DNA from: Simmondsia chinensis
Taxonomy: Eukaryota > Streptophyta > Magnoliopsida > Caryophyllales > Simmondsiaceae
Direction of reading: 5' to 3'
Assembly (NCBI GenBank): GCA_018398585.1
Contig: JAGTTD010000018.1
Coordinates: 11,787,501 to 11,851,500 of the forward strand
Length of the DNA: 64,000 nucleotides
Below, piece by piece: positions 3,788-38,744 of this stretch. The translations under genes were made by a program, and so were the position numbers. Below the pieces are notes generated by a model that was given only the letters and a program-made list of their open reading frames with translations, made no database searches and was not told where the DNA came from. Position 1 is the first letter of the stretch, and each line of letters opens with the position of its first letter.

Positions 3788-3793
3788 TTATTA

Positions 3794-8838: not shown

Positions 8839-8843
8839 ATACT

Positions 8844-8867: not shown

Positions 8868-8879
8868 TCCTCTTAAGAG

Positions 8880-12790: not shown

Positions 12791-12806
12791 ACGTTCTGGT
12801 ACCAAT

Positions 12807-13187
12807 TGTTATGATCGAGACTAATCTCAACCATAACCTAGAGGAGGATAGAATTAAAGAGAGTTTAGATAAGAAGAGAAGTGAATTAAGATGAGAAAAT
12901 AGACAGAAAGTTATTTGAGAGAGAGAGTTTAGTATCAAAAGATATTCTTTGTATTTGATTGAATGAGGATTACGAGAGAGACATTACATCTTTATACAAA
13001 TTCCTAATCTAAGCAATACATTGAACCAAGGCCTATGACCTTAACTGACTTTGGCGCCAACACTAACTAACAAACCTTAACTAGTGTATCAACCTACTTA
13101 CACACATCATTGACTTATACTACTTATTACATCTTGACTTATTCTAAATACAATCTTCCACATGCCCCATCTATAGGAATCATAACA
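12807..13187 (-). repeat. N copy a 5' LTR
   Basis: A 381-bp LTR runs TGTTATG...CATAACA and adjoins the PBS at 12791-12804. It contains a GGCGCC motif, CT/GA-rich tracts and the same block order as 8509-8838. Confidence 0.82.
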
Positions 13188-13683
13188 TCATACCATCAAA
13201 ACTCTTTTCAGACGCTCGAGGATACAAAGGATCAAGAGGTCTAGTATGCTGAATTCCAGAAGACAAAATTCCAGTTCCAAGAGGCATAGCTTAATCTGCT
13301 CTTGCATTCCAACTAACTATTGATGCATTTGTTGCTGTGATTGTGATATATCTCCTACTTTTTTAGTCACTGAACCAACTGCTAACATCAGATCATGCAA
13401 TTGCTTCTGAAGTTGAGTGATCCTGTCCACCTGATTTGAATCCACCGCTGCTGCTCCAGCATTAGCAATAGCATTAGCAGCAGCAGTGGCTCTAACAGTT
13501 GCTCCACCAACCATTGTAATCACTTTCTTACATCCTGTCATATTAAAGCACACAGTCCACCAAAAACAGATCAATCAACCTGATCAAGTGATCAAGTAAC
13601 TAATGAAACGTGAACGGATTGCTAAACAAATCGAATGTAATTTGATTCTAACCGCAGCAATTTGACAAGCTCTGATACCAATT
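13188..13683 (-). pseudogene. G2 gag start/leader with primer-binding site
   Basis: On the minus strand the PBS TGGTATCAGAGC (13669-13680, complementary to the 3' end of initiator Met tRNA) is followed by an open frame 13574-13317. That frame is Ala-rich and then Gln-rich (ITQLQKQLHDLMLAVGSV, SQSQQQMHQ) and is likely coiled coil. A segment ending in PLYPRASEKSFDG is then cut by N copy a. The leaders of the other chromoviruses here (for example 62371-62162) also encode Gln-rich coiled coils before gag. Confidence 0.7.
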
Positions 13684-14101
13684 ATTATAATTCAAGATCA
13701 AACTAGAATCACAACCTAGGATAGGGGAAGAATTTGAGATGACAAGTAGAAGAAAGAGATGAGAGAGAGAGAGATAGAGAGAGAGTTAAGGTTGGGAAGA
13801 AGAATCAATTCAATTCATTCAATACCTTTCTTACAAGAAAATATCTCACTACTTATAGCATTTGAGCTAAGAATGAGCTAAGAAGGAGAAACAATGCATC
13901 GGGACACATTAACAATCGACTTACAAGCTTGAGCCGCCAAAAAGGAACAACAACCTAACCAAACTAACTAACCTTCCCGCCAACGACTAAATTCAAACGT
14001 AACACTAGAATTTGACTTATTACAACCTTCAAATATCAAGATAGAACAAATACAAGCAACTACAACTCTATTTCAGACCCACTTCAGTTGAGATCATGAC
14101 A
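13684..14101 (-). repeat. G2 5' LTR
   Basis: About 418 bp, directly preceding the PBS. On the minus strand it begins TGTCATGATCTC and ends GAATTATAATA (the final CA mutated to TA). It contains (GA)n/CT-rich tracts. It ends at 14101 against S-LTR sequence; the 5 bases after it are CCACC, and the partner TSD would lie outside the window. Confidence 0.8.
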
Positions 14102-15332
14102 CCACCTCACTGGCAGCGTCTCCTGTGCAGCACCCCAACCCACGACCACCGTCTAAGCCCAGCTGCTCACCTCAGTCCAACCTGCACCAAGCCCATCACC
14201 AACCGTGTCCTCCATCTTGTCCTTGCTCCAGGCCTGCGTCATCAGCCCATGTTCGGCCCACCAGCAACCTCCAGCCTAGCATCGCCTCACACCCACTATT
14301 GTCCAGCTCCGACGCTAGTCCACCTTCGACAGGCCCACTAGCATCTTGCCCACCCCCAGCATGCAGCCTAGCTCCACCTAGCGTTGAACTATAGCAATAG
14401 TATATTTATCGAGTTTTTTTTATCAATTCAGGATTATTCTAGTTTCAACCCCTATAGTACCGCTTGAGGTTTTTTCTCAATTCTACTTTCTCACAGTTTT
14501 TCTTTTTTCCTTTTTATCCACAAATTGGACGTGAGTAATTGGCGTGGGATTGACATGGGCTCATTCATCTTCTCGTTAAATAGCTCATCCTTCATGGAGC
14601 ACAAACTTGCTCTTTAGGGTCAGATGAAATCTTAGTCTTTTTATTCTTGTATTACTTTTAGTTTTAGGAAAATTTGATTGTTTACATGAATTGCTTAATT
14701 ATGGGAAATACTTTGACGTATTACATTTTTTTTATCTATTATTCAATTGAGATGACTATTTAGTTTTGAACCTTTAATTATTGATTCTGATACATGTGAA
14801 CTGATTCTTTGGCTTGTAGCCTTAGGATTAACTGATTGGATAATAGTTTTCACCGAATTGTTAATTAAAGTCTATTTTCCTTATGTTTTTGTTAGATAGA
14901 GTTAATACGTGATAATTAACAATACGTTGAGTAGAGCATATTTTTCTTATATTATAGTTAGATAAGACCATTACGTGATACTAACTACATTACCTAAGTA
15001 AGTTGAAGCTTACAGCCTAAAACACTAGCCGTGTGACAATCAATAATCTCAATTTAAGAGTTAACACAACAATAATTGGCTAACGATGGATTCAAAACCC
15101 TAAGTTCCAATCCCATATTATTTTCCCATTTAGTACAATTCCTTAGTTTAACTGTCTTTTCTTCGATTAACACAAAATCACTCAATTTTCCTCGAATCTA
15201 TCTAAGTTATAAGATTCACGTACACTTAGTCCTATGGTTCGACACCCTCTTGCCCTAAACTTCAATAAGGATTTGTTTAGTGCATAGGGTTTTATATTAA
15301 ATTTTGATTAACGTATAAAAAAAAACACATCA
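14102..15332 (+). repeat. S 3' LTR (Athila-like element), left end cut by G2
   Basis: This 1231-bp stretch is homologous block by block to the S 5' LTR at 32305-35037: a C-rich region near 14110-14390, a CGCTTGAGG block at 14462, CACAAATTGGACGTGA near 14518, a TAGATAGAG block, and an end ...ACACATCA. It is not followed by a PBS but by ATCAATATACG, so it is a 3' or solo LTR. The first five flanking bases ATCAA equal the five bases before the S 5' LTR at 32077-32081. The small Pro/His-rich open frames in its C-rich part are not genes. Confidence 0.8.
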
Positions 15333-16705
15333 ATCAATATACGCGAATCGTTGATGGTGCATATGCAGTCCCTGCAACACGTGGCACTGTTTTATTGGTC
15401 CAGCCTTAATGCCACGAATTTCCAAGTTGTGTCCTTAGCGTGCGACACGTCTCACGTTGATTGGCTGCCTAGTTTGGGTGCGAATCACCCTTCATTGTCT
15501 TTGTTTTCTTCCTTTTTTGTTTAAATTCTCACATGTATGAAATTCATCTTATGAATTTTATTTGGTAAAATAAATTTATTCAACTTATGAATAAATAATT
15601 CATCTCATGAATTATATTTAGCAAAATTAACTTATTCATCTCATGAATAAATAATTCATATCAAGAATTTGTTTTAAATATTTTCAACCGATGTAATTCT
15701 AGAGGCTTGTAGAGGGACCTCAGGGACTACTTAATTTTAACTCCAAATGGGACAAATCTAATTATCAACTCTTTAATAATATTGATTACCATTTCGTAAT
15801 ATTTAGTTCCACTAAATAAATAATACTGCACTCTAAAATTAAACATAATTATTTAATAATTTTTATATAGCTTTTATTGTGAAAATCAATCCATCTATTA
15901 GATAACCATGAGGAAAAATAGCTTTAACTACTATCACTAAGTTTCTCTTATCTTTTATCGTAGTTTCGAACTCACCCTTCTTGAACTATTCATTATTACA
16001 TAAAATAATTTTTGTATTAATTTCAAATGTCCAACATCTGGAATACTTTGGCCAAAGATTCTCAAATCTGTTGTATGCTTGCTAATCAACTAAGGGGGCA
16101 TCTTTGTCTGATGAGAGACTATAGATTTCTCGTAAAATACCTATCCCTACTACACTTCATTCCCTTATCCAATGCATGTAAGATTTGTGTCAATGCATTA
16201 TGACTAATCCTTTTAGTGCATCAAAGCAACAAAAAATCCATGTCCGAGTTTAGACTATTTTCTGGATTTAGGGTTAGAGTCTTATAGAATTAGTTATTTC
16301 TTACACCAGTAAAGAAACAAATAATTTTGATTATATTGATCAGTGTTCCAGTAATATAAACAACACAAATATAATACTTATGGATCCCCATCCACATGAC
16401 CGAGACAAGTCATCTAAAGTATCATATTATAGTCCTATCAAACATGTTGTCCAAACTCATTACCGACTATGCACATAGACTTTGACAAACATATCACTAA
16501 TTTGATTTAAGCCTATATGTGGTTTAACCTCATTGACCACTTAAGCAGAATTTGACATGTCATCTTGAATTATGTCCATCTCATGGAACGTTTTAGAAAA
16601 CAATCACATGTACATTAGACTTGTAAGACAAAATCAAACATTAAATAAATAAAGCAAATTTATTTAATAAACATTGAAAATTGACTAATTGGGTTTTCTA
16701 GGACA
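15333..16705 (-). repeat. K2: U3-side half of a Ty1/copia LTR
   Basis: On the minus strand it begins TGTCCTAG at 16705 and shares an ordered series of blocks with the K1 LTRs (45169-47389), such as GAATACTTTGGCCAA (near 16040), AATCAACTAAGGGGGCAT and the repeated ATGAATTCATCT-like units near 15540-15670. It stops at the S 3' LTR. The missing R-U5 half matches the piece at 31441-32081, so the two are halves of one LTR split by S. Confidence 0.75.
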
Positions 16706-19700
16706 CTAATTCCAGCACACTTCCAATCCTCACATTGACTTGTGACAGATGGATGTATCTTCAAGCAATCCAAGTGTTCACTTGTAATTATTCTTCTCTC
16801 AAAATTGAAGTACTTAGAGAATTCAAGGTTATGGTCTAAAACCTTGGTCTTAATGATTATGGTTTCTTCACACCATGTCCTGCATAACTTATACCTTAAG
16901 GCTAGGTGGGCCAAACCATTGGCTTTTGATTCTGCTCTCGAGGTATGTGTTCAAATCAGACACCATCAAACTTGCTCAACGACCTTTGCACTATTGAGAT
17001 ATTTCATTAGAGGTGTCACTTAAACATCAAAACTCGCCTTTTACTTAGCAGATGACCAAATATAAATCCCCTCTTGTGATCACATTGGAGACTTGCATTT
17101 CTAGGAGAGTATGTGGGCCTATAATTAATGCCTCATACTCTGCCATATTGTCGAAACACTTGCCAACCAAAGTGACGCTAACTTGGTAAACAATCCCAAT
17201 AGGTGATTCAATTACAATCCCAACTCCGGCACTTGAATTCGTCCTTGATCCATCAAAGTATAGCTTCCAAGGGACCATATCTACTGCTAGGAGATAACCT
17301 GGCTCATAATCCATGTTAGTTTCAATGGTCGGGTGGTCAACTAAAAAGTCTGCTAAAGCTTGGCCTTTGACTGAATTTTATGACACCCATATGAATTCAA
17401 ACAGCAGTATAGCAATACCCCAATTATATAATCTTCCTCTCATTACAGGTTTATTAAGCATGTATCTAAGGACATCTCTCTGAGCAACCATGTATATGGT
17501 AAATGCTAAGAAATAATGTCTTAATTTCACAGATGCATAAAACAGATATAGACGCAATTTCTCAATGGAGGAATATTTTATTTCACATTCATTTAAATGA
17601 TGGCTTAGGTAGAATACAACATATTCAAACCCCTACTCATTGTCCCATACAATCAAACAACTAATTGACTCATCAAAAGCAAAGACATAAATCTTCGGCA
17701 GTTTGCCATTTTTAGGTGGAATCAACACTTACTGCCTAATCAAGTATTCCTTGATGGCCTCAAAGGTTTCTTGGTGTGGCTCCTCCTACTTGAAGTCTTT
17801 CTCAAACTTGAGTCCAAGTAGTAGAGAGAAGACGTTGGGTTTCCCTACGACATTTGAAAAGAAATGTCTTAGGAAGTTAATCTGCCCCAAGAAGCGTTAA
17901 AGCTCCTTTTTATTTGAAGGTGGCTTGGTCCCTTGAATGGCCTTGGTTTTTTTTTTTTTTTTTTATCAATTACAATCCCTCTCTAGTGTACTAAGAAACC
18001 AAAGAATTTTCCAGCACATGCACAAAAGGCTCATTTTAGTAGGTTCATCTTGAGGTTGTGGTTCCTCATTGCACTCCTCTCAAGTCCTCCAGGTGCTTGG
18101 CTTGGGACTTTGACTTGACCACAGTGTCATCTATGTAGACCTCCATGGTCTTGCCAATGGGGCCATGAAAGGTCATGTTCATGGCTCTTTGATAGGTGGC
18201 ACCCGTATTCCTTAAACCATAGCTATCCACTCAAAGGTCCTTATTGACCCAAGAAACCTAAATGATGTCTTGTGGGTATCCTCCAAAGCAATCATGACTT
18301 GGCAGTACCCATAATAGCCATCCGAAAAGGATAAGACGTCATGCCTTGAGGTTGAATCAATGAGGACATCAGCCATTAGCATGGGGTATTCATCCTTTGG
18401 GGTGGTTGGATTTAGATCTTTGAAATTAATATAGACTTTAAATTTCCATTCTTTTTTATAACAGGAACTATATTTGCCAACCATTCAACATACCTGGCAG
18501 TCCTGATGAATTTGCCTTTCAAGAGTTTCTCAATTTCCACTTTGACCAAGTATATCACCTTATAGGATATTTTTCTCTTGGCCTGATTTATGGGCCTCGA
18601 GCATAGCTTGATAGGAAGTCTATACTCAACCACTTTCTAACTAGGCAAGGAATCTCATGATTACCCCAAGCAAAGTAGTCCTTAAGCTCAAGAAGCAAGG
18701 TCAGATACTGATTCCTCTTCCCTTTAGAAAGCAGAGCACTCAGATATGTAGGTCTTGGGTCTTCTGTTGAGCGTATGGGGTCTTCAACTTCAGCCCTTAA
18801 ATCCTCCATGTTAGTTAGCGCTACTTTTAATTCAGATAGCTCCAACTCTTTTTCATATATCACTTAGACCTCGAGGCCATTTTTAGACACAAATGGCTAC
18901 TCAGCCACAATTGATCCTCAGCATGCCAAGCCACTAGCTTTGCAATGGTTAAGGAGATGGCCTTTTAGGCCTTTAATGGGAGATCATGGCTCCCACATAA
19001 CGCTTCTGGTGTGCCCTAAAGGTCCCCTTCATCAAGAAGGGCTCTCATGTATCCCCAGAAGTTAGAATCGTCTGACTCCATATCAACTTGATCAACCTCA
19101 GCTTCAGTAAGGAAGCTATCAAGGATAATATTTGTTCCTAATATTGGGTAGTTTAAGGAGTGGTCCTCTTCACATTGAGTGGTCTCATGCCATTTTGTAG
19201 AGCATTGCCTCAACATAATTTGAGCAAGTCATGAATGGCCTGTTAGCTATCATAACATCCTCATATTTGTCATGGTTCCAGACGATTAACAACTGGTAAA
19301 GTGAAGAAGGGATACAATGATTGGCATGTATTCAATCTCTCCCCAGTCAAGCACGATAACTAGAGGTAGTATCCACTACACAAAAAAAAAAAAAAAAAGG
19401 GTTGTTAGCTTGCTCAAGCTACCAATTGTTTACTCAATCAGAATGACCCCTTCAGACTTAGTTGTGGCCCATAAAAATCCACATATTGCCACATCTAAAG
19501 TTATAAAGTCATCTCGAGATTTACCAATGATCCCCAACATATGTAAAGGCAAGACATTGATGGCTGTGCCATTATGCACTAAAACTCTATTCATCAGAAT
19601 GCCATAAAAATTGGCCTTGATGTATAAAGGCTTGATGTATTTGTTGGCGGTATTAGGCCCATCCAACATCATCTTCATTATGTGTCATCAGTTGACTTGG

Positions 19701-20100
19701 ATGCTGGGATTTTAACTTTAAATGATAGAGGATCAGAATTACCTTTAGTAGCTGCCACTTCGACTACAAGCTTCACCTAGGGATCTTCGTCCAATGCTAT
19801 TACATGCTATTACATCCCCCTAGAGGCCGAACTTTATGTCAATTTCAATGAACTCTAAGGGAAGGAGAAAGGCAGTTCTCACATTAACTTGTTTAGGGAG
19901 TGACCCAGATTGTATCTGGACCCCTTGACTTGTCTCTTCCTTAGGATCTCCATATGTTGGTATATCTTGATCTTAAGGTTGAGTACTCCCATTAGTTAGC
20001 ATGTCCTCATCTCAAGGTTAATCCTTTCATTCAATATCGAGGGTCTGAGATTCCTCTATTTGTTGGGGGAAGTCTTCTTCATGGAACTCGTTTTCTATGT
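16706..20100 (-). pseudogene. T pol, 5' half: protease, RT, RNase H of a Tat-type gypsy element
   Basis: On the minus strand from high to low: a protease-like stretch (VLVHNGTAINVLPLHML, 19678-19430), an acidic linker, RT (KLLKGKFIRTARYVEWLANIV at 18633-18412; VYINFKDLNP; FSDGYYGYCQV; YIDD motif near 18140), and the second RNase H typical of Tat-lineage elements (KLYFDGSRTNSSAGVGIVIE, MAEYEALIIG at 17314-17045). It runs on to an EDWK block near 16735, which in this lineage leads into integrase. It breaks off exactly at the K2 LTR. The matching integrase starts at the other K2 half (31440). Many stops and frameshifts. Confidence 0.8.
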
Positions 20101-20353
20101 CAAACCATGTTGGCTTAACACGATTCAAAGGTTCAACTAAATTAATGCTGAGAACTATTTATTTCTTAACTGCTATCAGAAATAATTAATTTTGTAAGAT
20201 GATATCTCTAAATCCAGAAAATAGTTCGAATTTGTGCATGGATTGTTCGTTGCTTTGATATGTTAAAAGGATTAGTCACAAAACATTGACTTAAATCTTA
20301 CATATGTTGGATAACGGCATGAAGTATAGCGGGAACAGGCGTTTTACACTAAA

Positions 20354-20380
20354 GGTCCCCAGTTTGATCCTGGGCAACAG
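20354..20380 (+). other. tRNA T-arm-like / pol III B-box-like motif
   Basis: CCCCAG-TTTGATC-CTGGG forms a 5-bp stem with a 7-nt loop like a tRNA T-arm, and GTTTGATCC resembles a B box. No A box or acceptor stem was found upstream, so this is not a tRNA gene. It may be a SINE remnant or chance. The next 120 bases could be a scrap of LINE coding sequence, but that is weak. Confidence 0.2.
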
Positions 20381-21001
20381 CACTTATTTCTAATTTCGAC
20401 TATTGGCTGCCATGTGGTCACCTCTTGAAGAACCTCCCTGCTCAACTACTCACCTCCTTTGGTCTTCTGTGGAATTCTCGTGTCTCAGCTATCATTAAAG
20501 GTGATCAGTGGAGATTTTCGTAGGGATTATATGATTAAAAAAACTTAACCATTTGCAAATTATGTTTGAAAGAATATGTTCATAAAGATTTTTGCGATGT
20601 TGAATGAGCGACAGGAAACTACGAGTATTTAATCAAATTTTTTGAACAACTACTCAACATACTAATATATATACATATTGACATTGAGGTTTAAACCCTT
20701 TGAGATGTTTAAAGAATTTAAGAATTAAATTGAGATAGAGGCATTAAAACACACCGATCAGATTGAAGTGGTAGTTCTAAAGAGAGTTTTGAGATTTCTT
20801 TTAATGCAATGGTGTTTTGGAAAGGACTAATTATGTTATTGAACATTGTAAGATTCATAAGATGAATTAGGCCTACATATCAAAAGATTTGTTATGCAAG
20901 AGGTTTTTCAAATAACCATTGGAGTAGAAATGACCTCGTATTAGATGACATGACATTATTGTATCTCAATAGCATGATACAACATAGATTAGTGTTGACG
21001 C

Positions 21002-22214
21002 ATGAGGAGCATATCCATAGCTAATTTTAATGTTGCACCAAGTACATGGGAGCCTAGGTGTAGTAGGAGGATTGTCAAGGCACTTGACAAATTTGTGTCA
21101 TCATACTTAATGATTAAGCATGATAATGAATTTGATCATTTTATCTACAATAAGCTATTAAGAATAAGGATGCAAACGAATGGGCTAGGGTAATGAAAAC
21201 TAAGTTAGAACAAATGTATTCCAACCAAGTATGAGAACTTGTACAAGCGATGAAAGGCTTGAAGCACATTGAATTTGAATGGGCCTACAAGAAAAAAGAG
21301 ATGAATGGAAAAGAAGGTAGAGACCTTCATTAAAGGACTGATGCCAAAGGATTATACCATAAGAGGACGGAATTGTCTACGACAAGACCTTCCTACCAGT
21401 TGCTATGCTTAAGTCCATTCAAAAACTCATATCTTTTACTTCTCATTATGATGAGATATCGCAAATAGATGTCAAAACAATCTTTTTGAATAATCATGTT
21501 GAGGTAGATATTTTTATGACACAACTAAATGGATATTTTCTCATGAATTAAGAGCATATGGTATACAAATTGACGACGTTTATTTATAAACTAAATTATG
21601 CATCTCATTCATTGAGTATTGGATTCAGTGAAGCTATAAGATCATATAGGTTTGAACAAATGCTTGATCAACCAAGTGTATACCGATGCATAATACAAAG
21701 CCATTGACTTTCTTACTAGTGTTATATTTGAACTATATTCTACCCATTGAAAATGTCATAAAATAATTACAAGCTATGAAAATTTGACTACTGAGTTAGT
21801 TTTAAATGAAAGACCTAGTATAACCCAACTATATTTTTAGGACAAAGCTCTTGCATGATCATAAGAATAGAATGTTAAGCAGGTTATAGATTGCTTATTC
21901 CAATAAGGATTCTAGATATTTGATGTTAAAATTGGTCTTTATCTTGGAGTAGAAGCCATTAGATGATGAAGTGTCAAGCTACTTACATTGCCTAGTTCAC
22001 TATAAAAGTCAGGTACTTGATAGCTAGAGAAACTGTAAAGTTGGGTTCATGGCTTGGAAAGTTCTTTTTGGATCCACATCTTATGAGTGATACAATAAGA
22101 TAGTAAGACAACAACATTAAAATTGGTATAGCTAATTAGTTGGTAGATTTTTAGGAGATCGATAAACGATGCAAGGCCGATTAGATTTAGAAAAAGTAAG
22201 AGATTGTTATGTAC
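21002..22214 (+). pseudogene. K3 copia pol remnant
   Basis: The frame at 21002-21193 (RCSRRIVKALDKFVSSYLMI) matches the K1 frame at 50431-50706 (RCGGRIVRTPDKFIAGALVV), a pol segment upstream of copia RT. Further copia RT/RNase H-like scraps follow, such as GVEAI near 21950, matching ILGVGAMSE of K1. Heavily mutated. Confidence 0.55.
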
Positions 22215-22740
22215 AGTGTCATAAAAAATCAATTATTTATTTTTTTAATTATCAATAAATAATTTTTTTTTCTGCTGTCTAATTGTATTTTATAAGTTAT
22301 ACATGCATGCGATTTTTTTTTCAAAACGTTTCATGAGATGAACATTGTCCATAATGACATACAAATATTTGATTTAAGTGTAGGTCAATGGAATTGATCA
22401 AGAGAAAAACTTAGATAAAAAAGAGTGATATGCCTCGGAAAAATAAGTTCATAGTCAGTAACAAGTTTGGACTACTTATTTAACCAGACTATAATGTGGT
22501 ATAAGTAATGGCTTATCTAGGTCATTCGGATATATATCTAAAAATATCATAATTTTTTCCCAAAAATATAGGAACATTGAACTTGACCACATGAGTTGCT
22601 AATTTTTCTACTACTATCAAAAAATATAACGCGTATTGTGTGTTAAGAGATAACTCTAAACGATAATTGTGACATGGACTCATGCATCTTAAATGGTGAA
22701 ATTGAACTGTGACCTATAGGAAAGGTTAAGGTAACCCACC

Positions 22741-24992
22741 CAAAAATATTCTATTAAGGTATATGCTCGATATGTTGAAATTTTGATATTGGTTTGAATA
22801 TAGTATCGTTTTGGAGAATTTTTGGTACCCGACTTGACCCGATATTAATTACATACATTGCTTTAAACAAACATTTAAAGTCGTATTTAGAATAGTTATT
22901 ATGCTATCTTTATTAAATATTAAGGTTGTAGGTTCACTTCTAAATCCTAGCAAAAATATTATAGCCATTGTACTTTTTTCCTTTCTTTTTGCAACAAAAA
23001 TGATGCTGCCGCCCCTTAGATTTTGACAGGTTACAGAGCGGATAGATCATGGCGGGTTGGCATTGGAGAGATCGGTCACGTGGCAGCTCTAAAAATTAAC
23101 ATCAATTAGCAAGTTTAGTTTATATGAGTAGATTTTATTATTTATCTTCATATTTATCTCTTTTAATTTTAATCTTTTTATTCTAGGTGAATTAGCTCCT
23201 TTATTTAAAGAAGATAAAGACTAGGATTTTTTTAGCATTGAATTATTCAATTTTCATAGTTTTTGTTTATATTTTCTTTCTTATTCTCAGGTTATGAGAA
23301 TCAAGAATGGAACCTTTTTCCTTTGTTTCTTAATTATTTTAGAAATAGCAGTTCAAAAGAAGGCAGCTGAACTTTTCGTTCCCAATTTTTTTTCTTATCT
23401 ACGCTGCATCAAAAATCTTACCTTACTGTTATGTAAAAGAAATCCTAATTTTTCATCGTTTTCTCTTTGGAAAAATACTTTACTTTTAACTCTTGATCGA
23501 ATCACTAACGACAGACTATAATGATGATTGTTTGTGGCTGCTACTCTATTTCTCTCTATGTAATTACTGAACAGTTTTCTAATTGTGGAGATTTTATTTA
23601 TACGCCATGGTAATTTTAAGATGACTTATGGATTCGTTACCATTTGACAATATTATGTATGTCCTTTTTTCATTTGAAATTGTTAAGCTTAAGTGGAGTA
23701 TCATTATTATAATTTTATAATATAATCTAATATGGTATTTCCTATAAAAATTTTGTTATATATTAGTTTGTGTATAATAGGTCCCTATATAAGCTAACCC
23801 GAATTAACTAATGCTTGAAAAAGTTACTACTCAATGAAAAGCATAACTTGAAGCTAGATCGTTGGTGCAATGTGTCATTTTGAGGTCTTTAGCCAGATAT
23901 GAAATGGGAATGGCATGGCACTAAATAAATGTAATAATAAGGGTGATTTTGTTTAGATTTTGAGTTTTCACAACTTTTGGATACCGTCATTTTTTTCTTT
24001 ACCTATCGCATGTTATTTTTCTGGACCGTGCCATTGCCCAATGCTCAAAACTGTATAACCACTTCGTTTTTGGGTTGCCACGCAACGTCCATCCACCGGC
24101 CTCTTTGCGACACGTTTCTTGTCGTCCACGCTTAGATTGTGTAGGTTTGTCTTAGTTTGGACCATCTTTTGCAATGACGATGAATAGTCGAGATGGCGCA
24201 GGGGGAAGCAGCACGAATTGAGGCACAATGGTACATAACGATGGTTTAGAGAGAGAGAAATGCAAGGATGCTACATTTTCTTGGTTCTTTCTGCTTTCTC
24301 TCTTCTTTTCCCTCACGTTGCTCTTCAAAACCCTAACCCTAGCTGACATTCCTGTTACCTAGCCAAGTTCGTGGGTCATATGTGACGATCTTCTACGTCC
24401 GGTTTCGATTTGTAAGATTTATGACTTAGAATCCTATAATTTCATATAATTTGTATTACATGTTGAATCTTTGGTTTGTAACTTGTAATATAATCATCAT
24501 ATAGTGGATAAACTTCTCTTGATTTAGAGATTTGTGGACTACGACATCTTTTTCGGGTCCAATCCATGCAGGCTCTTATGTTCTTGGATTGATATTGAGT
24601 TCCTCTTTGTAACATTTTTTTTTCATAGCTTTATATTCTAGTCGATCTTGTAATTCATTATTTTGTAAATTTGCAAAGCCATTTAAAAGTGGACATAGTA
24701 AATATTTAGTTATATCTTTTATAAAACTAATTTTATAATAAATGTTAATGAAACAAGCGAATACCAAATTCGATGTGATCTTAGCCAATCCCTTAAGGTA
24801 CCCGATTGATTTATGTACCCAACGCTTTGGATCACTGTTTGCTTCATTTGCTTGTTAAGTGCGTGAATGTTGTCGCCGTAAATACAAATGTAAAAAAAAG
24901 TGCAAAAAGGGAATCATCGTAATTAGGGAACGAGACAAAATTCTGGACCGTACGTCTTTGACCTCAACCACTCACTTTTTCAGAGAAATGGG
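22741..24992. other. Unassigned AT-rich stretch
   Basis: No convincing reading frame, LTR pair or RNA gene. 23100-23290 loosely resembles the D LTR (27750-27930) in layout. 24325-24337 contains AAACCCTAACCCTAG, a telo-box-like motif seen in some plant promoters. 24480-24560 resembles the R-U5 part of copia LTRs. These hints are too weak to name an element. Short minus-strand frames at 24013-24349 show no recognisable domain. Confidence 0.4.
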
Positions 24993-25202
24993 GTGATGCT
25001 TTTGGTGTATCCAACTTCGTTTGTTAAACATGTCAATTCTTCTTACGCTCCAATTAAGGAAACTTTATATTTTTGTGGATTCTTTGATATACTTGATGAC
25101 AAAAAATTAAAGGGATATGGAGCTATCTCAAGTGGCAGTTATAATAACGGAACAGGGCCCACAGACATCTTTCCTCGTACACTGAAAAGTAAGAAACTAT
25201 GA
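24993..25202 (+). other. Small unrecognised open frame
   Basis: Sixty-nine codons (FVKHVNSSYAPIKETLYFCG, then SSGSYNNGTGPTDIFPRTLK). The composition is more protein-like than the surrounding AT-rich DNA, but I recognise no family and see no intron signals or partner exons. It could be an exon scrap carried by a transposon. Confidence 0.2.
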
Positions 25203-26340
25203 TGGAGACAAATTCAAGATCTCAGCAGTCCAGTTATAAACCCGCGTCACTCAAATTTTTAGGCCCAGCACTCGTGACTTATAATAACTTGAATGAGCTA
25301 GGGTCTAATAAGATTTAGGTGGAGCAAACTATATTTGAGTCACTAGAGGAGGAAAATTGCAATCAAGGTCAAGCCTTGGCCATCAAAGCCCTTAAACAAT
25401 AGCGCAAATCTAAGTTCACCTAAATTATTAAGCGGTGACAGTAGTGTTAAGACCAATGCAATCAAAGTCAAGCCTTTGTGTCAAAACCTTTAACTAACAC
25501 CTCAATTCTTAACTTGGTGTTTTCATGGAACAGATTAAAACAAAGAGTTCATACCTGAACCGTGAAGAACTGTATTACCCTGATGAAACAAATATAGCAA
25601 GATCTTTGCTAAGCTAAGCTAAGTTATGCTACTCCTAGGTAAAAAGCATAAGTGTGCTGTAAAGAAACTTTAAGAAGTTTGTATGGGTGGTGTTGGACAC
25701 TTTATGAGTACAATATTGTCTCTTATTTATAGAAAAATAAAATAATTGTTGCAAGCTAATTTAGTGACATTTTCTTCCCACATTAGCCTCAAAGCTTCTT
25801 TACTGTATGAATGGGTAGTGAAGGTTCCCTTAATTTGGTGTGCTCGAGCATCTTTATGGATGCCTACGTCTGCTTTTTCAACCGAGTCCCTTCTAGACAC
25901 CCTATATTCTATTGGATAAGCTTGAAGCCCATACAATTGAAATTTCCCTCTAAGTAACTGCATCAAACTTGAAAACCATCTTTCTTGTAGCCTTGTAGAA
26001 TGTCCCTTGAGCTCGAGTTCCTTTCACCTCTTAAATCATCTCGAGCCTTAAGTGGCTGATACCCTTATTAGTATTTTACACTCCTCATGAAGCTAGGCTC
26101 AAGACACAGTTATCTTAGCATCTAATGGCCTTACCTTCCTCGAGGAGGGCCTCACATCACAAGTGCATGGAGCTTTTCTCAAACTGCATTGTCCCAACTC
26201 CCTCGAGTTTACGGTGTAAACAAATGCCTCCTTTTTAGCCATTGGTAATTTCAAATTTCCCACGGGTAAAAATCTGCTTGATTTGACCCCCAACGGCTCT
26301 AGGGAGTTTGAGAGAACACTGTCTAATGTTTTACTTTCCT
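25203..26340 (-). repeat. Probable LTR of the Tat-like element T
   Basis: On the minus strand there is a TATA-like TTTCTATAAATAAG at about 25735, followed by a region like R-U5. A diverged ~99-bp tandem repeat (GCAATCAAGGTCAAGCC at 25359 and its relative at 25458) lies in it. Its place, between the protease/gag side of T (left) and the T 3' antisense frame and integrase (right), is where a T LTR would be expected. No second copy is in the window, so the ends are not defined. Confidence 0.4.
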
Positions 26341-26353
26341 TCATTCATGCGTT

Positions 26354-26366
26354 TCTATAAATACGA
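26354..26366 (+). promoter_or_regulatory. TATA-box-like site upstream of the antisense frame
   Basis: CTATAAATACGAC lies about 180 bases before an ATG at 26539 on the plus strand, opposite to the direction of T. Spacing and sequence fit a plant core promoter, but nothing shows that it is used. Confidence 0.35.
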
Positions 26367-26538
26367 CAATTAGTGCTTTGACGCTTGACTTTCCATCTAT
26401 GTGCTCTCTCTTTGCTGTGATTAAACGCTCAAAAACACTTGATTAAACGCTCCAAAACACTTGCTCTCTCCTTTTGATTTCTTCATCCTTCATCGCTAGT
26501 CTACTCTTTGAATCTTGAGATTCATCAAACCACTAAGA

Positions 26539-27509
26539 AATGGCTCAAATCTTTTACACTGTCTTTACCCTATTCCCTTAGGCTGATAGCCATATTGAAT
26601 AGTTGGCATGTCTAGTTCTATCAGATGTTTTAATGGCCTTTGATAGGCTTCAGAGCCCTATTAACCTTGGTACCATCAAGGAGGATCTTTCTTAGATGTC
26701 TAAGAACAATCAAGTTCACCATCCATACAGATATAGTAGGGATGGCTGGTGAACCTGACTATGTTGTGAAAACTCAAAATCTGAGGACCTGCCATGCATT
26801 GATATGATAGTAGGGAGTTGGGACTTGCCATTCCTCCATATGAAGTGATCATTTTCCCTACTATCATATCAATGCGTGGCAGGTCCGCTTGGTTGCACAA
26901 GTTTATACCATGAAGGTTTACAAGGTAATCACAAGCAACTCTTCTTATACCCCAGAGTACCTGTTAACCTAACCATAAACCTTCCGTTCCTCAGAATTCT
27001 CCTCAAAATATCAAATATAGGCATTAAGTAACATCACGTATTCCCTTAAGGACTTATAAGCATAAAAGTCCCACTTTCACGACCCATCAAGGATCTTTTA
27101 AAAAGGTAAGCAAGCCTTTTCCCCAAATTTTGGCATTATTTTAGGATCTTAAAGGAATACTAATGCGACTTTGTTTCCCTTACATTTCTCATGAATTCCC
27201 TAAACTACAAATAGGAGGATCTGAATTAATAGCAGCAAGGACATTGAGAACCCTTCCAAAAGAGACCAGCTTCTTGACCATTGGAGGAACGAGGCTACCA
27301 GTCAGCTATCTCCCACATGAGCATCCATAGGGAAAATTTCTTAGCTAGACCTGGAATGCATTTTCCCATTGTTGTGCAGACGTTTTTGGCCGTACAAGCA
27401 ACTTACATGTACTGTTTTTTTGTACTAGCCAAGTACTCCATGAAATCATTAACGAAATGTGCATTTTATGGAATATGTCTCATAGCTTGGTAGTTCCTTT
27501 TGTTCATTT
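26539..27509 (+). pseudogene. Decayed antisense frame in the 3' region of T
   Basis: Starting at ATG 26539 the plus strand reads MAQIFYTVFTLFP, then DSHIE, then LACLVLSDVLMAFDRLQSPI with scattered stops. A later stretch, near 27270-27310, reads LTIGGTRLPVSYLPHEHP. Tat-lineage elements are known to carry an extra antisense ORF between pol and the 3' LTR, sometimes with a plant-mobile-domain-like protein. This position and orientation fit, but I cannot confirm the domain by eye. It contains the hairpin at 26785-26886 and is cut by D. Confidence 0.35.
26785..26886. repeat. 32-bp near-perfect inverted repeat (hairpin)
   Basis: Arms 26785-26816 and 26855-26886 are complementary at 31 of 32 positions; the exception would be a G-U pair in RNA. 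They are separated by 38 nt. It begins GGACCTGCCATG and ends GTGGCAGGTCC. It is not at a transposon end. Confidence 0.85.
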
Positions 27510-28028
27510 TGATGCAGCCGCCATCCGATATTGGGGGTGCAATTCCAGCTGGTAGGTGACGCCATGGCAGGAGGATTGGCTGGGTAGGATAAACGGGTGG
27601 ATACAACCTCCTGTATGTGATTGGCATATAGCTTGGCAGTAATTGTTGGCAGCATGATCTTGGCAGCAAGGCTGATGAGAGACACAGTGAAGATCTGCAA
27701 TGAAGATTAGGGTTTGAGTTTGATTAGGACAGTTAGTTTTTAGATTTAAATCTTAAGTGTTTTATTTATATTTAGGCCTTCATATTTGTCTCTTAGAATT
27801 TATTTTAATTCAAATAGCTCCTCTATAAATACAAGAAGAATTAGGTTGTTTTAATTATTGAATTTGATAGATTATTTTTATGAGTTTTTAGCTCTTACTA
27901 TTCTCAAGAGTGAGAATTAGAAGTGAATTACTATGTTCCTCTCTCTTTTTGTTATTGAATAATAAAATTAAAGGGAAGGCTGTTGAATCCTTCCCATTCC
28001 CCAAAAATCCTACTTACACATTGCAACA
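27510..28028 (+). repeat. D 5' LTR
   Basis: 519 bp, similar throughout to 29472-29997 (for example GGCAGTAATTGTTGGC and the TTAGGTTGTTTTAATTATTG block). A TATA-like CTCTATAAATACAAG lies near 27820-27835. Confidence 0.85.
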
Positions 28029-29471
28029 GTTTGTATCAAAGCTCATAACGACTTCTGAGACAGCCTGTGGGAGACCGAGGTACGGTCAATGTCGGAGATG
28101 TTCTTGATTGTGATGTTCAATGGCAAGAAGAGAAGAGATTCGAGGAGGGGGAGGTGGAATTCCTGCGAATCAAGAGTTGCTTTATTCAAGTACGGGCAAA
28201 ACTCGATCTTGCACTCGAAACCTAGCCCCGACGCCAATTAACACTAGATGCTATAGAAGAGGAGACGGAGGTGATCCAAAATCCAACATCGGATGCTGAA
28301 CTACCAGAACTTGGGCCGCAGTGACATCAGCTCATTGCCGACAATGCAAACGTTGAAGAACGAAGGGTGGAAACTGGCCTCCACGATGAATTTTCAGAGT
28401 TGGAGGAAGAAGGCTTCACAATGGCGGCAGAGACTCTAGGCAAGTTGGCGTCACTTGGTGAAGAGGAGGCAGCGGGTGATGAGGGACGCTTGCTATTAGT
28501 CAGGCGGGTTGGCTTCACGCCTGAAGAGGCAGAAGAGGATGAATGGCTACGACACAACATATTCCAGACAACATGTACAATTGGCGAGAGGGTATGCTGC
28601 CTAGTCATTGATACTGGGAGTTGTGAGAACGCCATCTCTAAAGAAGCCATTCGGAAGCTAAGGTTAAAGATGAAGGAGCATCTGAACCCTTACCATGCTC
28701 GAGATAGACGATCAGCTAATCATATCTAAATGTTGTTTGGTCAATTTCTCAATTGGGGCAAAATATCGGGATGCGGTTTGGTGCGACGTTGTGACCATGG
28801 ATGCTTGCCACTTGTTGTTTGGGAGACCATGGTAGTACAATAGAGCTTCCATCCATGATGGATGACGTAACACAAATAGCTTCGTATTTAAGGGAACAAG
28901 GATCAACTTGTTGCCCATGAAGGTTGAGGTGCCATGTGAGTTGAAGACCGCAGACCCTAGGCCGGAAGAGAGAGCCGTGGCCACCAAGGCAGTTGGTGAG
29001 TCAAAGTTAGCATCCACACCAGTAGGCATTATCAGGGGAGAACCTATCTTTGATAAGCCGACACATCTTGATTTGTCCTGTCCACCCAAATTTGATGAGC
29101 CCATCCATGACAAGGAGGAGGTGCCGGCTAAACTAGGGAGTTTATCAAAGGAGGCGTGTCCTGATGGGTTAGGTACACGAGGATGCCTTACCAAGAATGT
29201 GGGTTCAATAATGATTACGGCATGTAGTGCATGAGGATATCTGGCACCAAGTGTGGAAGCTGCTTACTAGGAGTTACATCTGCGTAAGACAAAAAGACGG
29301 ATTAATGGAACTTGGCAGCTTAGTCACTAGCTGGTATGGAGGTTGGTTGGCAGGTATGTGCATTGGAACTCGATAAGTTTGGCAGCTAGAGTAAAGAAGC
29401 TCTACATGGCGAAAGTAGCCAAGACAATCCCTTGGAGAATTCGAGGGCGACCTCTCTCCAACCGGGAGAGG
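28029..29471 (+). pseudogene. D internal region: leader and protease, RT to integrase deleted
   Basis: A 120-codon frame (28367-28729) ends in an aspartic protease with CCLVIDTGSCENAISKEAI, the DTG active site of chromovirus proteases. The next part, partly frame-shifted, shows the family's VTMDACHLLFGRPW motif (about 28795-28840) and an HDG...N.FVF strand. Another open piece (28908-29234) is hydrophilic linker. The sequence then jumps to a short tail before the 3' LTR. RT, RNase H and integrase are missing, so it can only move with help. The protease catalytic triplet itself is intact. Confidence 0.75.
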
Positions 29472-29997
29472 ATGATGCAGCCGTCATCCCGATGCTAGCG
29501 GTTCAATACCAGTTGGAAGGTGAGGCCATGGTAGGAGGATTGGCCGGGTAGGATAAATGGGTGGATACAATCCCGTGTCGAGATTGACAGATAGCTTGGC
29601 AGTAATTGTTGGCCGCATGATCTTGGTGGCAAGGCTGATGAGAAATTTGGTGAAGATTTGCGGTGAAGATTAGGGTTTGGGTTTGATTAGGATTAGTTTG
29701 CTAGTGTTTAGATTTAAATCTTAAGTGTTTTATTTAGCGTTAGGCCTTTATATTTATTTTTTAGAATTTTGTTTCAAATCAAATAACTCCTCTACAAAAA
29801 CAAGAGGAATTAGGTTGTTTTAATTATTGAATTTGATAGATTATTTTTATGAGTTTTTAGTTCTTTCAATTCTGAGGAGTGAGAATTAGAAGTGAATTAC
29901 TTTGTTCCTCTTTCTTTTTGTTATTGAATAATAAAATTAAAGGAAAAACTGTTGAGTCCTTCCCGTTCCCCAAAAATCCCACTTACGCGCTGCATCA
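29472..29997 (+). repeat. D 3' LTR
   Basis: 526 bp, TGATGCAGCC...GCATCA, partner of 27510-28028. Scattered substitutions and small indels suggest it is not a very recent insertion. Confidence 0.85.
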
Positions 29998-31440
29998 ATT
30001 TTGCTTTCCTAAGGATCACTGAGTTGATCCTCTATACACTGATATTGAAACTAGGCCTATAATTAAGGGAATCTAAATTTGGAGACTTCTTTATTAGAAC
30101 CCGAAATTGAAGCCAAATATTTCTTAAGGAACCTTCCATTAATAGCCCTTTGATGAGTTCTCCATCTAGGTCATGGAGTCAGTAAGCATTTCCTCCAAAT
30201 ACCTCAATAACTATGATCAGGCATTCCTAATTTGGGTATCATTTCCCAAAGATGTGATCTTTCAAGCCAATGGATAATACCCCATTACAGACTAATTCTC
30301 CCAAACCAAATTACCTAGGTTTGACCTTCTTGCTAGGCTTTGGCCATCCTGTTTTGTTGCTTTTCTAGTTTATGAAAGGCGTCAAGCCTAACTTGGTCCA
30401 AGTTAGTAAATTCATCCATCATAGTCCACCCATATCCAAGTTTAGAAAACATTCCTTGATGAGCTAGCCTAATAGACTGAACTGTGACTTCCACTGTAAT
30501 TGCAGTATCATGGCCATATGTTAAATGGAAGGAGGTTGTCCCAGTTGCTTCAGGTTTGGACGTTCTATAAGCCCAAAGGGTATCAAGTAGAAACTCATGC
30601 CACCTTCTAGTATTATCCTCAATCATCGTCTCATTATTGACCCTTGAAATCTTATTAGTAGATTCTTCCTGGCCATTTGATTGAGCATAATAAGGGGTTG
30701 AGTTCAAGATTTCAATGTTGAAACTCTTGGAAAACTCCTTGACCTCAGCTCCATTGAACACTTTAGCTTGGTCCATAGTTATGATTTCTGGTATTCCGAA
30801 CCTACACGATATATAATCTTTGATAAAATCAATCACATCTTACTGATTAATGTTCCTGTATGGCTTAGCCTCCACCCACTTTGTGAAATAATCAATGGCC
30901 ATAAGAATGTAAGAATGCTGCTTTCTAGAGAGAGAGAGAGAGCGCCGGGGGGGGGGGGGGGGGGGAGGGGGGAGGGGAATTCATTTCTCCTATGATATCC
31001 ATTGCCCATCCTCAAAAGGGACATGGCTTAACAATAGCATGCATTTTAGCAACAGAGACCCTTTGTGCATGACCATATCTTTGGCATGTTGTGCATCCTT
31101 TTGCATCCTTGATAGAATTATCCCTCAATGATAGAATCGTCCATCATTGATGGATAATAGTAGCCATAATGTTTGATGAGCCAGTGCATATTATTACCAG
31201 CTAAATGGAATCCAAAAATACCCCCATGGGCTCCAACTTTCACTAGCATTGCTTCCTCTAAGTCTAGACACTTGAAAAGCACTCTACTTGTGTCCCATTT
31301 GTATAATTCTCCGGACTTATCATCAAGATGAAATATATGAGCTCTCATTTTCATCCTTATGTCTTTGACATTGTCACAAGATTTTTTGAAGCAATCCATC
31401 AAGGACTTCCTTGCTGAGAAAATTTAATTTCAAAACTAAA
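29998..31440 (-). pseudogene. T pol, 3' half: integrase of the Tat-type gypsy element
   Basis: On the minus strand from 31402: an N-terminal linker (DDKSGELYKWD), the zinc-binding region (HLAGNNMHWLIKHYGYYYP, then CTTCQRYGHA), and the core with IDYFTKWVEAKPY, PEIITMDQAKVFNG and SNGQEESTNK carrying the catalytic acids. The C-terminal domain (LPIGLKDHIFG-like, then HQRAINGRFLKKY) lies near 30260-30130. The core frame 30836-30333 is open for 167 codons. A GA/poly-G tract (30925-30977) sits between the zinc domain and the core. It begins at 31440 against the K2 LTR, just where the 5' half of T ends at 16706. Confidence 0.85.
30925..30977. repeat. (GA)n followed by poly-G in the T integrase
   Basis: About nine GA units, GCGCC, then G19, A, G6, A, G4. 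The coding side would read Pro- and Ser/Leu-rich low complexity between IIGEMNSP and SKQHSYILM. Four G runs could form a quadruplex. Length may be unreliable in assembly. Confidence 0.85.
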
Positions 31441-32081
31441 ATTTTCTAAATTGGCTAGATCAGGCGCAATCGAAATAATTTTAAAATTTGTTAATTTTAA
31501 ATCTAAGGATATCTATTCTAATATACAAATAACGCCTTAGAATATCAAAGCATGGTAAAATTTGAACTAAAAGCATAAATAAATTTGTGAAAAATTAAAG
31601 GAAAGCATTAAAAGATAAGCAATGAGGAATACCTCGATTGTAGAACGCAATTATCGCCTGAGAGGAATCATCGAGACCGCCAGATCTTCTTGGCAATGAC
31701 CCATTTACTCCCTGGGTGTGGGCACCGAAAATATTTTCTAGGAAGAATTTCAAAGAGAAATTCCTCATTTATAGTTGTCCAAAAAAATCAAGTTTTTTGG
31801 AAACTTTTCAGCTAATAAATTGAGTCCCAAAGATCCTTTTTTTTATAATAAGCATCAGATAAAAGACTAGGTCTCTTTTTAGATGTGGGATACTATTAAA
31901 AATAAAATACAGATTTTGAAATCATGCAAAATGACATCGTACACAAATAAATGCGTGTTTTTCTTGGCCACGTCAAATATGACACGTGCACGCCCCTGAT
32001 TCGTCAGCATCAATGATGCATCTCATATTTATGCATATTTTCCTTGAAATTTTGGCTCTTTTGCACATGTCCAATTATCAA
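31441..32081 (-). repeat. K2: R-U5-side half of the Ty1/copia LTR
   Basis: On the minus strand the order CCCACATC...TATAAATGAGG...AATATTTTCGGTGCCCAC...GAAGATC parallels the promoter, R and U5 part of the K1 LTR (46610-46840: CCCACATCG, TATAAATTGAGG, AATATTTTTCGGAGCCCAC, GAAGATCG). It has no U3 half here; that half is at 15333-16705. It ends with ATCAA directly before the S LTR. The left border with T integrase is approximate. Confidence 0.6.
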
Positions 32082-32552
32082 TGTATCCTCACTTTGGCAA
32101 TTTTTTATATTTTATAGGTTCAAAGATTAAAGTTTCTGAAATGGAAAAATTATAGTGCAAATGAGACAAAATTGGATGCATGGGAACATCAATCAAGTCG
32201 GTCAGGATTCGGGAAAAGCACGCATGACCCCAAAACCAAGTCAGGCCCACCGCCGCCAAGCTGGCTGGCATCGACAACCCAGCACACCCACTTATTCCCA
32301 CAACCACCTGACGTACAGCATCTCCTACCGTGCACACCAGCCTATGACCACTGTCCAAGCCCAACAACTCACCTTAGTCCAACCTGCACCAGGCCCATCG
32401 CCACCATTGTCCTTCAACCTATCCCTACGCCGGCCCAAGTCCGGCCCACCAGCAACCTCCAGTTTAGTTCCGCCTAGGGTTGAACAGCAGCATCAATATA
32501 TTTATCGAGCATTTTATTAATTCATGATTATTCTAGTATGAATCCCTGCAGC

Positions 32553-34054
32553 TAGGGGTGTTCAGTGGGTGGGTTGGGTTGGGTTGGGTTTGGGGCCAAT
32601 CCATTAAGACCCAATAGTTTTGGGTCCAAGACCCACCCATACCCAAAAAAAAAGTTCTTAAAATATGGTTCTGGTTCTGGTTCTGGTTCCGATGGGTCAT
32701 GGATAACCCATGGCAACCCAAAATAACGAAGGGTGACAACGGAATCAACTAGAAAACTAAAGTTGACAATGAATTGAGCAATACGCGTAGAATAAAATAG
32801 TCAACTAAGCTCAGTTAGTCCAAATTTTAGGCTTACCTTATTAATCCAACATGAAGTTTCGGATTTTCTAGACATAAAATGAAACCTGTTGGACAAACCG
32901 TATATGTACGTGCATAAAATTTCATATTTCTTGGATTGTTTTAATTAACCTAAATTTTTTTTGTAAAATTTACACTAAAGGTTCCATTACTTCGTGCATT
33001 GTGTTAATTAAGTCTCTTTTTTATTTTCAAGGAAATTATCACTTAGATACCCTGAGATTTGATTATTTGTCACTTAGATACCTTGACATTCAATTTATAA
33101 ATGAGTAGTATTTCATCACTTAATTACCCTATGTAAGAATTTGATAAATTTCTATGAAAGTCACATCACTTTTATACAAAAAAATGCTAATATAGTGTAT
33201 AATTATAATAACATATATAAGTCATGTTAATATTTTCAGCAAAAATTCAATGAACTATAATAAAAACTTCAATGACTTTGGATGTAAACTATCTATATAT
33301 TGTTAGAATCATGTGTGATATCAACATTATTTTAATTCAAAAATCTTTAAATTCTTATGAATATACATGTATACTGTCGGAATCAAGTTTTATTTTAACA
33401 TTTTTAACAAAAACCTATCAAATTTTGGAAAAAGGGTACCTGATTGATAAAATTTTAAATTTTCAGGGTACCTAAGAGATAGAATTTTTAAACCTCAAGG
33501 TACCCCATTATATATTTTCAAACATCCAAGTACCTAGATAATAAATGATCAAACATAAGGATACTTAAGTGATAGTTTCTCTTATTTTCAGCTATGTCAA
33601 TTTAGTTTATACATAATTTTTATTGTATTAATTTAGTCTGTTAATCAAACAGACATTACGTTAATGACATAAAATTGGACGGCACAATCATATTAGATGC
33701 AAATAACCCGTTACACATGCACTCGTTGACGCAATGAAAACCAATTTGTGACCACACTATTGAGAATTTCGTCACCAAATTAACATATATTTTACTCAAA
33801 GATCAAATTAGCGCCATGTTTGTGCACGAACTAAGTAAAAGGACCCCTAATGTAAATAGCCTTGCTTTTAGTAAGATTGTAGAAATGTTGGGTTGGGTAT
33901 AATGGGTTTTATCTGTTGACCCATAAAAATTCATAAAACCAATTGGTAAACTTAATTCTACCCAACAAGAACCAACAAATTTATAGAACCAACCCAACCC
34001 AAATTGAGTGGGTTGGGTGGGTCTTGGGTTTACCCAAACCCATGAACACCCCTA
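32553..34054. mobile_element. Non-autonomous hAT DNA transposon
   Basis: Perfect 12-bp terminal inverted repeats TAGGGGTGTTCA / TGAACACCCCTA and a perfect 8-bp TSD CCTGCAGC (32545-32552, 34055-34062) identify a hAT insertion. Subterminal GGGTTGGGTTGGGTT repeats and their complements at the other end are typical. No transposase is encoded. A MITE at 33030-33581 is nested inside. Confidence 0.92.
33030..33581. mobile_element. MITE nested in the hAT element (9-bp TSD, Mutator-like)
   Basis: Inverted ends AGGAAATTATCACTTAGAT and the complement of GTGATAGTTTCTC flank 552 bp of AT-rich DNA. A perfect 9-bp direct repeat TTATTTTCA (33021-33029, 33582-33590) points to Mutator-type transposition. Sub-repeats of CACTTAGATACC recur inside. 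No coding capacity. Confidence 0.8.
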
Positions 34055-34205
34055 CCTGCAGCACCGCTTGAGGCTTTTTCTCAGTTCTACTTTCTCTCAA
34101 TTTTTCTTTTTCCTTTTCCTTCATCCACAAATTGGACGTGATTAATAGGCTTGGGATCAACATGGGCTTGTTCATCTCCTCCTTCACCGGTTCATCCTTT
34201 ATGGA

Positions 34206-34357
34206 TTTGGTTCTTCGGTCATCCAGAGGTGTATATTCTCATTCTGCTTGGATTCGGTATCATAAGTCATATCGTTTCGACTTTTTCGGGAAAACCGGTC
34301 TTCGGGTATCTAGGCATGGTTTATGCCATGATCAGTATAGGTGTTCTTGGATTTCTT
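34206..34357 (+). pseudogene. cox1: Fragment of mitochondrial cytochrome c oxidase subunit 1
   Basis: About 152 bp encode [13 protein letters not shown], then [19 protein letters not shown], then [12 protein letters not shown]. This is the highly conserved core of COX1 that includes the GHPEV copper-site region. One change from the conserved protein is visible: Leu for Pro before GFG, a C-to-T change. The flanks are S-LTR sequence, and the other S LTR (near 14590) has no cox1. This is nuclear mitochondrial DNA captured after S integrated, probably as filler in double-strand-break repair. It is not a gene. Confidence 0.95.
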
Positions 34358-35043
34358 AGGATTAAATGAAATCTTAGTGTTTTTATTCTTGTATTACTTT
34401 TAATTTTGGAAGAATTTGATTGTTTACATGAAGTGCTTGATTGTGAGAAATAATATGAAATATTACTTTTTTATCGATTATTCAATTGAAATGACTATTG
34501 AGTTTGCAACCTTTAATTATTAATATTAATACATGTGAATTAATTCTTCGTGTTTGTAACCTTAGGATTAATTCATCAAACAATATTTTTCACCAAAGTA
34601 TTAATTAAAGCCTATTTTTCTTATAGTTTAGTTAGATAATACGTTAAATATTTTTAGATTAAGATCAATACATGATACTAACAATATTACCTTAGTAGGT
34701 TGAAGCTTGTAGCCTAAAACACTACATGTGTGACAATCAATAATCCAATTTAGGAGTTAACGCAAGATCAATTGGTTAATGATGGATTCAAAACTCTAAG
34801 TTCTAATCCCTTATTCTTTTCCCCTTTAGAAGTAGAATTCCTTAGTTTAATTGTCTTTTGTTTGATTAACTAACTCAAAATCACTAAATTTTCCTCGAAT
34901 CAATCTAAGTCATAGAATAGACTCGCGTATTCTTAGTCCCAGTTATTAGACACCCTCTCGCCCTAGACTTCAATTAGGATGTGTTTAGTGAATAGGGTTT
35001 TATATTAAAATTTTGTTCAACATACAAAAATGCATCAAGATTT

Positions 35044-38046: not shown

Positions 38047-38487
38047 TGTTAACGTTTCGAAGATTAGCTCTTGAGCCTTAACCTTGGTCGGGATTGTGAG
38101 AATATGAGATGAGAAAGAATATAGAATTGAGATGAGAAAAGAAGGGACAAGAGATGAGAGAATAGAGAAAGCAACCAAATGAGATCAATTCATTGTCAAA
38201 GTTATGGATTACAAGCTAATACCCCTTATTTATACTACTTACATAATATAAGCCTAAGACATTGAATCTAACCACACAAAGACTAAACCACTTAGGAAAT
38301 ATCTAAAATTATCTAGAACCAATGCTAACTAATATTCAATTTATTAATATTGGAGCCCAACACAACAACTAACAGCAGCAGTAGTAATGCAGCAGCAGTA
38401 GTAAGTGCAGCAGCAGAACAACATTTCAGCATTAGTACAACTTCTCAGCCTCCATGAGTCCATGCCTCAGATTCTCGGTTTATAACA
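38047..38487 (-). repeat. N copy b 3' LTR
   Basis: 441 bp. It contains a GCAGCAGTAGTAA-type trinucleotide-rich patch and a TATA motif (minus strand GTATAAATAAGG near 38230). Confidence 0.9.
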
Positions 38488-38744
38488 TTCCCTTCCCCTT
38501 AAGAACATTCTTGTCCACAAGAATAGAAGGGAGTTGTAACAATGAAGACATCTATTGCTAACGAAATATGTCTGAGGTGGTGAAAGCTGCTAAACATCTG
38601 CAACTATGACTACCAATAAGCACTTCTAGTTATTGTGATGCCGTGTCTGTGTTTTGAATGCATAATGTTCTTCAGGAGGTCTACTATAATCAAACCAAAC
38701 ATCACCAACACAATCCGAACCTCTCTGGTTGCAGTAAACACGGC

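Follow-up and report, generated by a model that had tools for sequence, protein, structure and literature searches.

We are highly confident that the permuted order of elements in the 64-kb stretch of jojoba DNA analysed here (the window; C10:11787501-11851500 in a search of the 831-Mb genome) reflects a tandem duplication, and that two head-to-tail copies of one chromosomal block meet within the window. The stretch is rich in nested LTR retroelements. Three of these are split between its left and right parts: a Ty3-type element (T), presumably of the Tat lineage; a solo copia LTR (K2) inside T; and an LTR element (S) inside K2. The permutation pointed out in a preliminary description is genuine and checks out at all three levels, with the element borders given there as 32082, 31441 and 16705 now corrected to 32014, 31411 and 16719.

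At the innermost level, the S 3' LTR of the first unit (14101-15332, plus strand, all but its first 295 bases) lies to the left of the S 5' LTR of the second unit (32014-35037, plus strand). The latter has a copy to the left of the window and carries an insert at 32553-34054, presumably hAT-like, with an 8-base target repeat CCTGCAGC. Its start is placed at 32014, where TGATGCA forms a perfect 7-base inverted match to the LTR end TGCATCA; only this one of the 31 TG starts in 31800-32303 matches at 7/7 positions, and all five matches to 32014-32330 in the fetched flanks begin there. A start at 32082 was rejected: ATCAATG occurs there too, but both the inverted terminal match and the flank copies start at 32014. 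The presence of ATCAA on both sides of S, claimed previously, is upheld, with 32009-32013 before the right LTR now superseding 32077-32081, and 15333-15337 after the left LTR. It is kept on both sides of S in the outside copies, and ATCAA makes up 0.3% of the 5-mers in the window.

Truncation of the left S LTR at 14102 can be discarded, as a Ty3-type element, N-, sits in it and the LTR resumes to the left of N-. The 295 bases with which the S 3' LTR begins are found beyond N- in both units (-2192 to -1908 and 86986-87270; flank positions are given in window coordinates). N- occupies 4119-14100 on the minus strand and continues to about -1908 left of the window, with an RVP_2 match, a sub-threshold rve match and a 5' LTR at ~13684-14100; a second copy at +87.3 to +92 kb shows 87-88% identity. 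The 40 matches scored for the left S LTR (of 2935 candidates) comprised the window itself, one whole-length match of 86% (C10:11880246-11881453) and 38 others of at most 79%, which lack at least the first 369 bases.

The next level is K2, on the minus strand, with its 5' part in the first unit (15333-16719; ~70% identity to K LTRs, copy from 94001 onward) and its 3' part in the second (31411-32013, placed by K LTR alignment; left copies at -37355 and -17936). Within these borders, the earlier proposal that the flanks of S are complementary halves of one copia LTR is borne out: each half matches its own portion of the K LTRs located at 45 and 51 kb, and on K LTR K5 the right half aligns to 1299-1855 and the left half to 2-1345. 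Against K5 the left half scored 2209, with a maximum of 287 in 60 shuffles, and the right half more weakly, 401 vs a maximum of 202 (60 shuffles); taken by themselves, the initial 300 bases of the right half did not rise above shuffles. A motif common to both halves leaves a possible overlap of ~50 nt. K2 is flanked by CTTCC (31406-31410 and 16720-16724); the copy of the K2/T edge to the right of the window lacks this motif. In the left unit, a K-family element is seen in the K2 LTR at -37213 to -17937 (L020 to L018), with a 6-base overlap at 31701-31706.

At the outermost level, the minus-strand T part in the first unit (16720-20152) carries RNase H, RT and protease (RVT_3 and RT_RNaseH in Pfam), while its integrase part, also on the minus strand, lies in the second (29998-31410; sub-threshold rve, E 3e-4). 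That these flanks of K2 are complementary halves of one T pol, as had been suggested, is confirmed by two T relatives at other places in the genome. In L028 (C17) window positions 29998-31412 align to 159-1500 and 16724-19786 to 1501-4567, with zero gap, and in L027 (C11) the two T matches meet at 4508-4520 with a 13-nt overlap. Joined, the flanks form one open frame that resembles the relative and is 3 nt shorter than L028. Stretch 16706-19870 has one close whole-length copy (89%, C10:11882829-11885940), the next by score being 79%, with a few shorter pieces at 80-82%, among 53 matches (40 of 3566 candidates scored). T is like the Tat/Retand elements in the available excerpt of PMC11963269 in having RNase H-RT-protease and an integrase of the general type. 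Unlike these, T is decayed, and three plus-strand frames downstream of the T integrase, none of them with a Pfam match, showed no antisense TRP28 domain of the Retand kind. A protein search with the start of the T integrase found no homologue.

Most of the halves absent from each unit in the window were found in the 80 kb fetched on each side. To the right lie N- (87.7-91.8 kb), the S 3' LTR with K2 (91.8-94.0 kb), and the K2 left half with T RNase H-RT-protease (94.0-99.1 kb), at 87-89% identity. To the left lie the K2 right half with the S start (-17.9 kb), the end of the S 5' LTR with S interior (-11.7 kb) and Y, a Ty3-type element inside S (-10.4 to -7.0 kb), at 83-92% identity, as well as copia and flank sequence (pieces of 19875-24079) at -47.2 to -37.4 kb. 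These outside copies stand in the same orientation and at the predicted places, and thus in the order that a tandem duplication predicts; composite edges are common to both sides on the same strand, and the adjacent copies span more than one transposable element (TE). The tandem duplication is demonstrated, whereas the repair pathway and the third unit discussed below are what we infer.

The outside copies anticipated in the preliminary description were therefore present for K2/S to the left and for T protease-RT to the right. Its expectation failed for the T integrase, not found within the 80 kb retrieved on the left side, where it falls in a 7.5-kb stretch missing from the left copy. Positions 24079-31562 (flank, T 3' LTR, the short LTR element P and T integrase) have no copy in the left flank, 24079 running into K2 at 31562 via ~20 bases of filler. 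By eye, this filler, at the deletion join at -37376 to -37355 (L020), looks copied from near 24026-24046. Right unit homology ends at 20538. The two outside units are thus both incomplete (the left without 24079-31562, the right stopping at 20538), which counts against the duplication model.

The distance between equivalent points is 67,072 bp in the first unit vs 78,570 bp in the second, which supports the earlier proposal of a tandem duplication whose period today exceeds 64 kb. Of the second unit, 24,979 bp belong to a hairpin element, to G2 and to X together with the elements inside it, so the unit measured at most ~54 kb when it was copied. It was accordingly shorter than 64 kb at that time, 25 kb of the right unit being absent from the left one.

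The boundary between units can be placed to the base. The right end of the unit (20153-20532) consists of a K-like LTR fragment (20153-20346) and a LINE-like fragment, behind a composite edge at 20152; only three copies run across this T/K-like edge among the 43 matches listed (40 of 5105 candidates scored). The left end is a plus-strand copia fragment (20539-22500; 90-91% copies to the left), and between the two, at 20533-20538, comparison of block copies places the junction, a LINE-like/copia microhomology of GATTAA. The LINE-like and copia labels of these short pieces are our reading of translated motifs, of which only the copia RT at 21363-21548 (RVT_2) was confirmed by Pfam. Block 19875-20538 (664 bp) occurs in three places, in the window (J), to its left (L) and to its right (R). 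Past it, R continues LINE-like, while J and L both switch to copia at GATTAA, and just left of L another copia stretch (L-left) runs uninterrupted across GATTAA. Since the switch is seen in J and L and in neither R nor L-left, J and L represent a single fused join in two copies, R and L-left being the two original ends. The locus thus retains a novel junction together with both original ends, GATTAA being common to the original copia (left), the original LINE-like sequence (right) and the two fused copies.

The K2P distances of the block are about equal (J-L 0.099, L-R 0.118, J-R 0.128), and its 42 L-type, 26 R-type and 31 window-only sites show no clear parent-to-parent switch. We considered and rejected the block as an old direct repeat used in recombination, as its copies are about equally diverged and the left copy has the fused join. 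The L-left copia matches the copia of the units only for 43 bases past the join and then differs; because its sequence beyond this point reads like ordinary copia integrase, we read the difference as a putative small deletion in the copied version.

We suggest the following course of events. Before the copying, the block ran, from left to right, from the copia fragment and flank through the T 3' LTR and integrase and the K2 right half to S (with Y and N- inside), followed by the K2 left half, T RNase H-RT-protease and the K-like and LINE-like fragments. Its LINE-like right end was joined to its copia left end at the 6-base microhomology, in a manner resembling end joining or template switching. 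The fused join occurs once more at the left edge, and the same join found twice indicates that there were probably at least three units once, of which the first was almost wholly deleted. A further round, probably of unequal homologous recombination, would have produced these units. The second copy of the join suggests that the leftmost unit was later lost almost entirely, by a deletion that would begin immediately past the copia breakpoint, on its right, and end in T near 19860. The surviving units each gained their own insertions and deletions. This third unit is indicated by one extra join copy, which the copying of a short piece would equally give.

That the same join exists in two copies of similar age would also be accounted for if a circle, excised from the locus and closed at GATTAA, had returned to it by homologous recombination and so yielded at least two units at once. 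Such a circle has left no direct trace, and the product is the same when end joining is followed by unequal crossing-over, so we regard reinsertion as unlikely. Equally speculative is the idea that the block was amplified to at least three units at one time via a microhomology-closed circle, TE-rich plant DNA growing in this way by ~50 kb per unit without LTR homology.

The preliminary description had favoured unequal recombination between the LTRs of T, giving LTR-interior-LTR-interior-LTR with one common T LTR near 25.2-26.3 kb. Only one T LTR is indeed found between the T halves, and available excerpts describe tandem LTR-retrotransposons with common internal LTRs as frequent in plants (PMC11899658) and 'LTR-internal-LTR-internal-LTR' elements in pear (PMC4668562). 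The locus is like these in its head-to-tail copies with LTR elements; it differs in that the LTR is not shared, the breakpoint lies outside the T LTR, and the unit is a whole nest. The T LTR extends over 24838-26222 on the minus strand (TGTTT...AAACA by eye) in the second unit and is not common to two T interiors. All seven T LTR relatives examined (L032-L038) have a match that starts at 24836 and no LTR match starting further left; in L036 the piece from 24836 is inverted and the main match starts at 24932. The T 5' interior of the C11 relative borders on an LTR edge equal to 24836, and this interior found no match in window 20153-24835 at E 1e-5. With the T 5' interior absent left of the LTR, we read the latter as a normal 3' LTR belonging to T of the second unit, and the common LTR is not confirmed. 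The sequence to its left (left flank of T, 22504-24837) moreover includes flank found in the left unit too (22504-24079), and the fused join is at another place (20533-20538). An exchange between the LTRs of T is therefore very improbable, the breakpoint being the LINE-like/copia microhomology.

A 68% match to window 22311-22551 adjoins the LTR of L038 on its left; we take this stretch to be a putative K-type LTR. Borders of 25359-26460, first drawn by eye for the T LTR, were replaced after comparison with its relatives. Ten short frames around this LTR gave one sub-threshold Pfam match only. By eye, a solo LTR like that of P is seen at 23003-23411.

False duplications occur in assemblies, and haplotypes or a misthreaded repeat laid end to end could in principle mimic the arrangement. 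Across 11 stretches, however, the units are 85-93% identical rather than near-identical, with K2P of 0.078-0.164. Nine of the 11 fall at 0.091-0.116, an approximately uniform divergence against which the outliers count (K2 right half/S start 0.164; copia 0.078), and the two S LTR ends, compared between units position by position, give 0.113 and 0.103. The join is present twice, its copies differing by independent substitutions. Different later insertions together with ~10% divergence exclude a recent assembly error, and we consider an artefact most improbable. For the same reasons, the assembly mis-join and the present-day one-LTR circle raised in the preliminary description find no support, the copies being linear and chromosomal in the assembly, each with insertions of its own. 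A chance encounter of two nests of the same families, formed independently, is barely credible: LTR-element nesting is common and not random, according to a partial text of PMC6911290, but K2 has the same position in T and S in K2, with the same target repeat ATCAA, the same T/K-like/LINE-like edge occurs in three places among the matches listed, and there is one shared divergence.

As replicates of one nest with one starting date, the two units provide an internal clock. S, Y, N-, K2 and T are in both units and so preceded the copying, while e, G, G2, the hairpin, X and K are in one unit only and should follow it. The LTR pair of S (K2P 0.167-0.183 in three comparisons, one across units) agrees that S is older than the copying. 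Other LTR pairs gave 0.145 for P, 0.104 for X, 0.102 for K, 0.089 for e, 0.051 for G and 0.023 for G2; for the elements confined to one unit (e, X, K, G and G2) the values thus do not exceed the divergence between the copies. The elements e, G and G2 are in one unit and younger than the copying, although the value of e (0.089 ± 0.017) lies within error of it. X and K, also in one unit, show the same divergence as the units and do not help in ordering events. P (27510-29997, plus strand, in the T 3' region; LTR pair 87%) falls within the stretch missing on the left.

The insertion e lies in N- at 8502-13187 and is absent from the right copy, where its site is uninterrupted but for 17 bases. Y, in the second unit, runs on the minus strand from 35578 to 64000 and past the window end (RVT_1), and contains G2 (38044-42719) and X (43890-63144, itself with K and G). 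The left Y copy is without G2 or X, and is uninterrupted at the sites of X and of the hairpin. The latter, a 1-kb element in the Y 3' LTR (35697-36744) with arms 87-94% complementary, has a repeat of ~8-9 bases (AAATATCA).

Duplicated TE nests have been described in high-density regions of Drosophila, with barley and Arabidopsis cases cited therein (PMC1794594, in excerpt). As in these Drosophila nests, nested elements of several families were copied together here. Unlike them, the jojoba locus is from a plant, is more deeply nested (Y or N- in S in K2 in T), and has copies ~10% diverged and a breakpoint seen to the base. The literature search found nothing that could be tied to this locus, which is a well-resolved new example of a duplicated TE nest. 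It shows that extensive tandem duplications in DNA rich in transposons can originate at microhomologies instead of LTRs, and that such copies are easily missed because they are broken up by later insertions. At the right edge of the window, 63394-64000 is repeated at 69301-69907 outside it (92.8%), and the two are probably the LTRs of a further element.
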